DNA of 64,000 nt from Streptomyces sp. 11x1 (GTDB lineage Bacteria > Actinomycetota > Actinomycetes > Streptomycetales > Streptomycetaceae): NCBI RefSeq assembly GCF_032598905.1, contig NZ_CP122458.1, positions 6,535,001-6,599,000 on the forward strand, written 5' to 3'. Made by a program: the position numbers and the translations under genes. The notes under the pieces were generated by a model. That model was not told where the DNA came from, searched no databases, and saw nothing but the letters and a program-made list of their open reading frames with translations. Shown piece by piece: positions 41,409 through 44,409 of the stretch (the stretch's first letter is position 1; every line of letters starts with the position of its first letter).

Positions 41409-42431
41409 GTGACGGACACGGTGTTGACACAACAGACGCGACGACTGCCCGGCCGGCGCCCCACCCTGGACGACGTGGCACGCGGCTCGGGTGTCTCGAA
41501 GTCCACCGTGTCACGGGTGATCAACGGCGAGGACAAGGTGCGCGCGGAGGTCGTCGAACGGGTCCGGGAGGTCATCGCCGAACTCGGCTACGTCCCGAAC
41601 TCCGCCGCCCGTCAGCTGGTCACCCGCCGCAACAACGCCATCGCCGTCGTCGCCGGCCAGCCGCAGAACCGGCTCTTCATCGACCCCTTCTTCGACCTCC
41701 ACCTCCGGGGCATCCGCAAGGAACTGGTGGCCCACGGCGCCCAGCCCGTCCTGCTCTTCCTGGAGGAGCCCGAGGAGTACCCCCGGGTCGGTGACTTCCT
41801 CGGCGGCGGCCACGTCGACGGCGCCCTGCTGTTCTCCCTGCGCGCCGACGACTCGCTGCCCGGCATGATCGACCGGCTCGGGCTGCCCGCCGTCTTCGGC
41901 GGCCGGCCGCTGGTCCGCGACGGCGAGCCCGCGCACGACCGCGTGTACGTCGACGCCGGCAACCGGGGCGGGTCCCGCGAGGCCGTCCGCCACCTGGTCG
42001 CCCAGGCCGGGAACGCGTCGCCACGATCACACGATCACCGGCCCCGTCGTCCGGGAGGCCTCGGCGCTCGACCGCCTGGACGGCTACCGGGACGTCCTGC
42101 CGGACGCCTCGCCCCTCCTGATCGAACACTCCGACCACACCCGGCAGGGCGGGGCCGACGCCATGACATCGCGCTCCAGGTGCTGCGCGAGCGGGGCCGC
42201 CGGGTGCCGGACGGCGTGGCCGTGGTCGGCTTCGACGACCTCGCGCCCATCGCGCACACCGATCCGCCGCTGACCACCGTCCACCAGGACATCGAGGGCA
42301 TGGGCCGGCTGATGGCCCGGCTGCTGTTCAGCCACGGCGACGACGGCCCGACGGACGGCGGGGCGACGGCGCCCGGCCCCCGGTCGTCGGTGGTCACCCC
42401 GACGCGACTCGTCGTACGGCAGTCCGCCTGA
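41409..42431 (+). pseudogene. LacI-family regulator disrupted by compensating indels
   Basis: The first ~195 codons encode a normal LacI repressor: HTH at PTLDDVARGSGVSKSTVSRV, hinge, and an effector domain up to GGSREAVRHLV. Then a one-base loss near 42008 moves homology to another frame (ERVATIT). An 8-base tandem duplication (ACGATCAC at 42023-42038) moves it again (ALDRLDGYRDVL...GGADAMT), and a deletion near 42165 restores the original frame for IALQVLRERG...VVGFDDL. The 340-codon frame stays open, but ~55 residues in the middle are scrambled and part of the effector domain is gone. Start GTG 41409. It is probably non-functional unless these are assembly errors. Confidence 0.8.
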
Positions 42432-42520
42432 CGTGTGACTGAACAGCCACTGAGGTGCGTGGTCTCACTCCCCGGCCCGAAACCGTCCGGCATGTGGGAT
42501 CACATTCCGGGACCCGGACC

Positions 42521-42547
42521 GGGAATCGATACGATGAGCGCATGGTT
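42521..42547 (+). promoter_or_regulatory. SigR-type promoter upstream of cysO-cysM
   Basis: GGGAAT (42521-42526), exactly 18 bases, then GTT (42545-42547) match the consensus GGGAAT-N18-GTT of the thiol-oxidative-stress sigma factor SigR. Transcription would start around 42553-42558, just inside the leader peptide reading frame. Cysteine genes are sensible SigR targets. Confidence 0.7.
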
Positions 42548-42637
42548 TTTGACGACGTGAGCGAGAAGACGCCGGGCGCACTGCTCGTGGCGCGGCTGCA
42601 CGTCGACCTGTGCAGGCTTGCCAGCGCCATCTGTTGA
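42542..42637 (+). CDS. Cysteine leader peptide upstream of cysO-cysM
   Basis: A 31-codon ORF ending ARLHVDLCRLASAIC then stop. The HVDLCRxxSAxC ending is typical of the short leader peptides seen before sulfur and cysteine genes in Streptomyces. It has two Cys codons, one at 42611 and one as the last codon (42632). Ribosomes slowing there when Cys-tRNA is scarce could alter folding of the leader and free the cysO ribosome-binding site. ATG 42542 lacks a ribosome-binding site; GTG 42557 in frame could be a leaderless start for a SigR transcript. It starts 209 bases before cysO. Confidence 0.8.
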   Translation: MVFDDVSEKTPGALLVARLHVDLCRLASAIC

Positions 42638-42741
42638 CGCCGACCCCTGCCGCCGTACGGCCGTGAGCCGCGGCGCCGACACCTGTGTGACCACGCACTC
42701 CGCGCTGCCGCGCGCCACCGACCCACCACTCCCGACAGGAG
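42596..42741 (+). promoter_or_regulatory. Putative attenuator between leader peptide and cysO
   Basis: Two hairpins can be drawn. CTGCAC (42596-42601) pairs with GTGCAG (42610-42615) across the first Cys codon of the leader. CTCC (42729-42732) pairs with GGAG (42738-42741), which is the ribosome-binding site of cysO. Ribosome position on the leader could decide which forms. The stems are short, and a real fold should be computed. Confidence 0.45.
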
Positions 42742-42750
42742 CCGCACACC

Positions 42751-43029
42751 ATGGCCATCGAGGTCCGCATCCCCACCATCCTCCGCCAGTACACCGACGG
42801 TCAGAAGGCGGTGGAGGGAGCCGGTGACACCCTCGCCGACCTGTTCACCGACCTCGAGAGCCGTCACACGGGCATCCAGGCGCGCATCGTGGACGGCGGT
42901 GAACTGCGCCGCTTCGTCAACGTCTACCTCAACGACGAGGACGTCCGCTTCCTGGAGGGCATCAACACCAAGCTGTCCGACGGCGACAACGTGACGATCC
43001 TGCCGGCCGTGGCCGGCGGTATGGCCTGA
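42751..43029 (+). CDS. cysO: CysO-type sulfur carrier protein
   Basis: A 92-residue ubiquitin-like sulfur carrier. In mycobacteria its C-terminal Gly-Gly is turned into a thiocarboxylate, which donates sulfide to CysM. Here Gly89-Gly90 are followed by Met-Ala, so the end must be trimmed before activation, perhaps by Mec, as in QbsD/QbsE of Pseudomonas. Supporting sequence is VNVYLNDEDVRFLEG and VTILPAVAGG. GGAG at 42738 precedes ATG 42751. cysM begins six bases after its stop. Confidence 0.93.
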   Translation: MAIEVRIPTILRQYTDGQKAVEGAGDTLADLFTDLESRHTGIQARIVDGGELRRFVNVYLNDEDVRFLEGINTKLSDGDNVTILPAVAGGMA

Positions 43030-43986
<957 letters not shown>

Positions 43987-44027
43987 GGGCGCGTTCCGGG
44001 GCGGGGCCTGGGGTGCGTCGGGTGGGG

Positions 44028-44129
44028 CTTCTCGCGCAGTTCCCCGCGCCCCTGAAAAGCCGGGGCTGCGCCCCTGGCTTCTCAGGCCCGCAGGGCCTGA
44101 TCTTTTAGGGGCGCGGGGAACTGCGCGAG
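44028..44129. repeat. Inverted REP pair after cysM
   Basis: CTCGCGCAGTTCCCCGCGCC (44031-44050) and its reverse complement (44110-44129) form an approximately 25-bp stem enclosing ~55 bases with further short palindromes. It begins 42 bases after the cysM stop and may terminate it. Confidence 0.8.
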
Positions 44130-44409
44130 CAACCCCCACGCACCCGCACCCGACAACGCGCCCCCTTCCGCCCCCCGGAACGGCCCCACCACCAGCCGAA
44201 CCGGTGACAGCACAGGTGAGTTCGCCCACAACGGCCCCTGGCGGAGGAGCGACCCACCCTTTTGCGCCTTACGCTCAACGGACCGCACCACTCGTGTTGC
44301 ACCCATGTCCGTCCTTCGCAACCCCGCCACCCGCAATACGCAACCCGTCTGCACGTCACGACTGACACGACTGTCACGACTTCACGCCAGCGCGGAGGTT
44401 CCAGCTCTC
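44130..44409 (+). other. Leader region of the metallo-hydrolase gene
   Basis: This 280-base gap has no gene. Near its end the unit CACGACT(G/T) occurs three times with a nine-base period (44357-44382), 28 bases before the start codon; it could be an operator or a slippage repeat. Confidence 0.4.

Follow-up and report, generated by a model that had tools for sequence, protein, structure and literature searches.

Two overlapping promoters probably start RNA on separate in-frame start codons of a cysteine leader upstream of cysO-cysM in Streptomycetaceae

Introduction

Leaderless, cysteine-rich leader ORFs reportedly occur in mycobacteria, with the Ms5788A and Ms4527A families as examples. Mycobacterial leader ORFs of this kind are described in Shell 2015 (PMC4633059). 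In M. tuberculosis, mec-cysO-cysM is under direct SigH control, and SigH starts coincide with annotated start codons or lie 3' of them (PMC4803200). For S. coelicolor, cysM is described as hardly expressed without diamide and as diamide-induced with or without ndgR, and an oxidative-stress RNA-seq study reports upregulation of SCO2910-SCO2912. At sigR itself, transcription from a SigR-dependent promoter yields an isoform that is longer because it begins at a start codon further upstream (PMC5472188, PMC4921905).

Here we examine a cysteine leader upstream of a cysO-like gene and cysM in Streptomyces sp. 11x1, where a SigR-type promoter overlaps the start of the leader. A reading made from the sequence alone (hereafter the sequence-only reading) had proposed that oxidative-stress transcripts begin inside the leader, a coupling of which it had seen no description. 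Two overlapping promoters, each on its own in-frame start of one leader, were not found among the titles and abstract openings of the papers listed in searches of the open-licence literature. Control of cysO-cysM by SigR/SigH, in contrast, has been reported before, and diamide induction of cysM, SCO2910-SCO2912 upregulation, mycobacterial Cys-rich leaders and SigR isoforms are already known as well.

Comparative set

The window is a 64,000-nucleotide stretch of the Streptomyces sp. 11x1 genome, to which all coordinates below refer. We gathered 229 cysO upstream regions from Streptomycetaceae: 80 named loci with the best scores among 544 candidates, 30 loci (one of them, L089, is the window) drawn from 150 genomes of the genus to which the window belongs, 60 more of those 150 genomes, mostly the most divergent, and 29 loci from a family-wide search of 61 genomes, followed later by 30 more that formed a test set. 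The family part takes in 50 of 51 other-genus genomes, with G180 omitted because its sole match was a 59% paralogue, and certain genomes are counted twice in the set of 229. A leader was found in register 20 nt after GGAAT in 219 of the 229 loci, or 213 after removal of identical regions; since the leader search was anchored on this motif, GGAAT is universal by selection in the 213. The remaining ten loci are L037 (which contains Ns), L119 (a diverged leader that retains ATG and GTG), L044 and L113, L271, L120, L121, L124, L125, and L195. An earlier, stricter count comprised 183 distinct regions with exact GGGAAT. Numbers of changes refer to a tree of 130 taxa drawn from the leader regions, and other families were represented by their 22 best-scoring loci, which are not a random sample.

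Results

Layout of the locus

The features of the locus, all on the + strand, are as follows.

42498-42512, +: NdgR-like operator GATCACATTCCGGGA, 8 nt 5' of GGGAAT
42521-42526, +: SigR-type -35 element, GGGAAT
42530-42535, +: housekeeping (HrdB-type) -10 element, TACGAT, ending 6 nt 5' of ATG 42542
42542-42544, +: ATG, start 1 of the leader, where the housekeeping transcript is predicted to begin
42542-42637, +: cysteine leader ORF MVFDDVSEKTPGALLVARLHVDLCRLASAIC, 31 codons plus stop (42635-42637), ending in HVDLCRLASAIC; NF042934 match
42544-42551, +: possible anti-Shine-Dalgarno GGUUUUUG, whose complement CAGGAGCC lies at 42736-42743
42545-42547, +: SigR-type -10 element, GTT, which is codon 2 of the leader
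42553-42562, +: 5' arm of the leader hairpin, CGACGUG plus AGC, pairing with 42599-42605 and 42595-42597
42557-42559, +: in-frame GTG at codon 6, start 2 of the leader, where the SigR transcript is predicted to begin
42595-42605, +: 3' arm of the leader hairpin, GCUGCACGUCG, with a bulged G
42611-42613, +: first Cys codon, TGC, codon 24
42632-42634, +: second Cys codon, TGT, codon 31
42736-42743, +: cysO Shine-Dalgarno (SD) region CAGGAGCC
42751-43029, +: cysO-like gene, ThiS/MoaD family sulfur carrier (Pfam PF02597, 64.6 bits)
43036-43986, +: cysM, cysteine synthase (NCBIfam TIGR01136, 363.8 bits, above cut-off)

The 31-residue leader scores 38.1 bits, over a cut-off of 27, with NCBIfam NF042934, a model of putative leader peptides (cis_reg_atten). 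Its Cys codons are conserved, as is characteristic of a cysteine attenuator, with TGC in 211/213 regions at the first position and TGT in 208/213 at the second, where the other five have a stop codon. No Rfam family matched between 40000 and 45500 at gathering score, and no terminator-like site was detected on the leader strand, the sole one lying on the other strand. The cysO gene is preceded by GGAG in all 183 distinct loci scanned (AGGAG 157, GGAG 22, GGGAG 4). The operator GATCACATTCCGGGA matches GATCACACTCCGGAA, which is given in Table 1 of PMC4340878, at 13 of 15 positions, and the exact GATCACACTCCGGAA 15-mer lies 8 nt 5' of GGGAAT in L039, L045, L051 and L056. Following the S. coelicolor precedent, NdgR would bind just upstream of both promoters.

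Several further observations concern the surroundings. An ORF for a LacI-type regulator (41409-42431), between a JAMM protease gene and the leader, is LacI-like at both ends, whereas its middle resembles LacI when read in a different frame only, a pattern that a pair of compensating indels would leave. Between the flanks, no match to the segment is present in the relatives L011, L015, L021 and L027. Directly 3' of cysM, at about 44020-44140, lies a long inverted repeat, CGCGCAGTTCCCCGCGCCCC ... GGGGCGCGGGGAACTGCGCG, perhaps a bidirectional terminator. A second gene for a CysO-like protein, 58% identical, is found elsewhere in the genome (G000:C1:5790753-5791025). The last Cys codon is TGT in all 208 leaders that have one and in five other leader-like loci of this genome (L231-L235), in contrast to the TGC of the first; a slow codon or pairing are candidate causes of the TGT preference.

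A SigR-type promoter overlapping the leader start

The sequence-only reading had noted GGGAAT-N18-GTT as an exact SigR fit overlapping the start of the leader, and the motif is indeed present across ATG 42542, in agreement with the consensus GGAAT-N18/19-GTT of SigR/SigH-type promoters. Genes for SigR (360 bits) and RsrA (104 bits) stand next to each other in this genome. Within its 10.67 Mb, the pattern occurs 27 times, against 4 for the reversed pattern, and one of the other 26 sites is located 290 nt 5' of the sigR match, which supports the reading of the pattern as a SigR site. Across the GGAAT-anchored regions, the -35 element is GGGAAT in 208/213 and A/T/C-GGAAT in five, and GTT follows after N18 in 183 regions and N19 in 30.

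A transcript start inside the leader, near the GTG, had also been proposed, and published spacing leads to the same place. In PMC10012870, promoters of the orthologous SigH with the form GGAAT-N18/19-GTT are numbered with the fifth base of GGAAT at -31; applied here, this numbering puts +1 at 42557, the first base of the GTG, possibly one base off since spacers of 18 and 19 are pooled in that source. Its table includes SigH/SigE promoters at distances of 0 and 1 nt from a start codon. Where the spacer is N19 (30 loci), GTT stands 8 nt from codon 6, and with numbering from GTT the start would be shifted into the codon by one base. Elsewhere in the genome, ATG or GTG is seen 9 nt after GTT at none of the 26 exact SigR-type sites, at 8 nt in three (L002, L242, L256) and at 7 nt in three. 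Taken together, the comparison supports a conserved SigR-type promoter with an expected start inside the leader, near 42557.

A housekeeping-type -10 element and the first start codon

The sequence-only reading had overlooked TACGAT at 42530-42535, a TAnnnT hexamer. A TAnnnT lies six bases 5' of codon 1 in all 213 regions and also in L271, and codon 1 is itself a start codon throughout (ATG 211, GTG 2). GGAG, GAGG or AGGA occurs within the six bases between hexamer and start in only one of the 213. A -10 element six or seven nt 5' of the start with no SD between, as seen here, is the arrangement expected of a leaderless mRNA. According to PMC10012870, sigma-A-type transcription starts 7 nt below the -10 element, and this rule, applied to TACGAT, gives 42542, the first base of the ATG. 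Hence, ATG 42542 is likely a leaderless start served by a housekeeping-type -10 element. A promoter scan of 42400-43100 returned no sigma-70-type promoter, and no TTGAC-like -35 element for TACGAT was seen by inspection.

A probable second start codon at codon 6

Codon 6 is GTG in 206 regions and ATG in seven, with no other codon among the 213, and lies exactly 15 nt from codon 1 in every one. The base preceding codon 6 is a pyrimidine in 212/213 and that preceding codon 1 in 213/213. On the tree, codon 6 shows 0 changes, compared with 8 to 33 per base in the hypervariable codons 3-4 (28/21/29 for codon 3), and the length from the codon-6 GTG to the core changed 13 times. As a control for codon bias, the Val codon right before the core is GTG in 149, GTC in 21, GTT in 5 and GTA in 2 of 183 regions. 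Other core codons are invariant too, namely CAC, and TGC in 183/183, so that invariance alone does not prove that a codon is a start. Codon 7 begins with A in 201/213 regions, which was not used as evidence because codons 9 and 10 are A-rich as well. The ATG variants make a stronger point for a start codon than invariance does: all seven come from the test set, fetched after the idea had formed, and belong to two genera (four and three loci). The short leaderless leader that the sequence-only reading had suggested from this GTG is thus favored in so far as the codon behaves like a start codon, its actual use being inferred.

The same reading had offered as an alternative that stress transcripts skip the normal start. 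That they bypass the leader as a whole was discarded, because both Cys codons lie downstream of 42557 and would still be encoded by an RNA beginning there.

Loss of the leader and of single elements

In five loci (L120, L121, L124, L125, L195) the leader has been lost. GGAAT and TAnnnT are kept in all five and GTT in four (not in L120), while codon 1 is no longer ATG in any (ACG, ACG, ACC, AGG and, in L195, GTG) and codon 6 no longer provides an in-frame start 2 (GAA, GCA, GGG, ACG, TGA). L195 retains GTG at start 1 and has GTGAGC 8 nt after GTT. As a separate observation on L195, this GTG, 8 nt after the SigR -10 element, opens a stop-free frame into the cysO-like gene, so that a CysO with an N-terminal extension could be made from a SigR transcript. 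The identical loci L044 and L113 keep the promoter, the ATG and the codon-6 GTG in an ORF of 11 codons without a Cys codon.

The opposite case is L271, where GGAAT and GTT are absent at their usual places and TACGAT, the ATG and the first Cys codon are kept in a leader ending in RRHLDLCRLASAL. Its codon 6 is GCC, i.e. in the comparison the second start is gone from the sole leader without a SigR element, which again favors the GTG as a start codon. L271 is a single locus and cannot separate a start codon from a hairpin as the reason for codon 6, since its hairpin arms were lost together with the SigR element.

Beyond the family, motif search found the leader in none of the 22 best-scoring loci, while six of these 22 have a SigR-like site 65-104 nt 5' of cysO. 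By this comparison, the leader seems to have been added within Streptomycetaceae to a SigR-type promoter of a kind present in other families too.

Possible pairing of the leader 5' end with the cysO ribosome-binding site

Whether stress could release cysO-cysM translation from cysteine control, the "override" of the sequence-only reading, depends on what the SigR transcript would lack. GGUUYY at the beginning of the ATG transcript is able to pair with GGAGCC of the cysO SD, and an RNA starting at 42557 is shorter by 15 nt that comprise this possible anti-SD and part of the hairpin 5' arm, which offers a possible mechanism. Several computed values fit such a release: the duplex of anti-SD and own SD averages -8.04, versus -7.74 (sd 0.06) with SDs permuted among the 183 loci and -5.53 with SD letters shuffled; pairing of the SD with the 5' part of the RNA is 0.369 over the first 30 nt, and drops to 0.049 in the shorter RNA over its first 15 nt; and the three stem pairs left without the 15 nt have a probability of 0.04. 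However, the computed exposure of the SD (unpaired) rises merely from 0.113 to 0.160 between the ATG and GTG RNAs; it is higher in 143/213 regions, with changes above 0.2 upward in 22 and downward in three. The covariation is likewise uneven. Permutations match the real value in 0/200 cases for the GTT class, but in 170/200 for the CGT class, and although codon 2 and SD correspond by class (GTT with GGAGCC, CGT with GGAGCGC, TGT with GGAGCAC), a large part of this match is confounded with genus. In loci from genera other than that of the window, the SD type fails to follow codon 2, as 12 of 18 GTT loci there carry GGAGCGC or GGAGTGC. We regard the anti-SD covariation as suggestive, and confounded with phylogeny. 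The stress leader would also retain both Cys codons, which would be odd if control were simply dropped. Such a release under stress is a tentative proposal that we would not favor, although it is compatible with the two-promoter model and would add to it.

A hairpin within the leader

Codon 6 could also be conserved for RNA structure alone, with YGACGUG of codons 4-6 complementary to CACGUCG, the His-Val-Asp codons of the core; the GTG would then never be a start, and the SigR 5' end would simply happen to lie at this place. The pairing itself is well conserved: all seven core pairs can form in 196/213 regions, six in 13, five in three and four in one, around a loop of variable length. In the ATG-to-TGC segment, its probability is 0.88 over the 213 regions (above 0.5 in 199), and 0.91 versus 0.001 in shifted registers over the first 183. 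The six leaders with Ile (ATC) for Val in the 3' arm all have GAT at codon 5, which occurs in only 18/213, with fewer than six independent events because part of these loci come from one genus. Every change within the codon-6 GTG breaks a pair, and GACGTG is found within 200 nt in none of the five other leader-like loci of the genome, where the His-Val codons vary.

Still, codon 6 is exclusively GTG or ATG, at the position of the start predicted from published spacing, and the seven ATG variants break a pair because the His codon is CAC in 213/213. Three of them, L287-L289 from one genus, have no computed hairpin left (0.0) and keep the start codon. On these seven pair-breaking cases, we rejected the hairpin as the sole cause, and consider it improbable that the GTG serves pairing only. 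The leader hairpin, with its covarying pairs, accounts for part of the codon-6 conservation, and pairing is the main alternative to a start codon. Its role is uncertain, since whole-leader folds give the hairpin a probability of 0.10 with longer-range pairs instead; the leader folds no better than shuffled sequences (z +1.80 and +0.64).

Least probable, and in our judgement quite unlikely, is a plain SigR promoter that overlaps the leader incidentally, with all useful transcription SigR-dependent and TACGAT non-working: the low cysM expression without diamide in S. coelicolor and the six SigR-like sites of other families, which by motif search have no leader and point to SigR-type control without one elsewhere, would agree with it, whereas TAnnnT and a codon-1 start persist in all 213 regions and in L271 without its SigR element, the ATG is gone from the five leader-less loci, and the ATG would be left with no evident transcript to begin on if TACGAT were not there.

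Discussion

The reading we prefer, with a probability of roughly two in three, is that two overlapping promoters each start RNA on their own in-frame start codon of one cysteine leader. It draws on the conservation and spacing of promoters and starts across the aligned regions, the loss of starts where the leader is lost, the covarying hairpin, and the missing second start of L271. Counting against it are the start codons retained in L195, L044 and L113, the GTT spacing of the N19 loci, the three other genomic SigR-type sites with ATG or GTG at 8 nt, the lack of a hit in the sigma-70 promoter scan and of a TTGAC-like -35 element, the hairpin arm around codon 6, and the weak folding of the leader with no terminator on its strand. 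The housekeeping promoter would start at ATG 42542 and give a leaderless leader of 31 codons, and the SigR promoter, with its -10 element inside codon 2, would start within about one base of GTG 42557 and give a leaderless leader of 26 codons; the exact 5' ends and the sigma factors involved are inferred. Under low cysteine, ribosomes would stall at the Cys codons, and stalled or queued ribosomes would prevent the 5' end and the hairpin from folding back on the cysO SD, so that this site would become exposed and translation of cysO-cysM would rise. Because both forms keep the Cys codons, cysteine could still act through leader translation on the stress RNA. The housekeeping RNA would carry the full 5' element, the SigR RNA the sensor codons without it, and with more reserve, we suggest that the stress form may be attenuated less for want of the 15 nt of hairpin arm and possible anti-SD. 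One could speculate further, at rather long odds, that the sigma-factor switch re-cuts the attenuator: thiol stress would shift the RNA start 15 nt downstream in the same frame, delete the anti-SD and part of the hairpin arm, keep the Cys codons, and thereby give another set-point.

If the two-promoter model is true, promoter choice and leader-peptide control operate within the same 15 nucleotides, an arrangement kept across a bacterial family. The locus would be a compact, testable case of a cell combining the signals "oxidised" and "short of cysteine", and one could test directly whether an ECF sigma factor makes use of a leaderless GTG start.

By score, the leader is a member of the NF042934 leaders (38.1 versus 27 bits). 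Six leader-like loci are present in this genome (L230-L235, four above the cut-off), and a GGAAT-type SigR site lies within 300 nt of the core only here. As an observation apart, L234 (25.5 bits, below the cut-off) has GGAAC-N19-GTT 216 nt 5' of its core. The leader resembles the mycobacterial Ms5788A and Ms4527A leaders in being short, in having its Cys codons close to the end of the ORF, and in preceding sulfur genes; leaderless translation is seen in those leaders and predicted here. It scores 16.3 and 16.0 bits against the two mycobacterial models, below the cut-off of 45. Unlike the mycobacterial leaders, it has two Cys codons seven apart rather than a cluster, two promoter elements, two conserved in-frame starts, and a SigR-type -10 element within the ORF. 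The mec-cysO-cysM locus of M. tuberculosis shares the cysO-cysM genes and an orthologous stress sigma factor, SigH, but the available passages of PMC4803200 do not describe a coupling to a leader such as is proposed here. A parallel in logic is sigR itself, where promoter choice under thiol stress likewise decides which in-frame start is used, with the difference that stress lengthens a protein there, whereas here it would shorten a regulatory leader whose two starts would both be leaderless.
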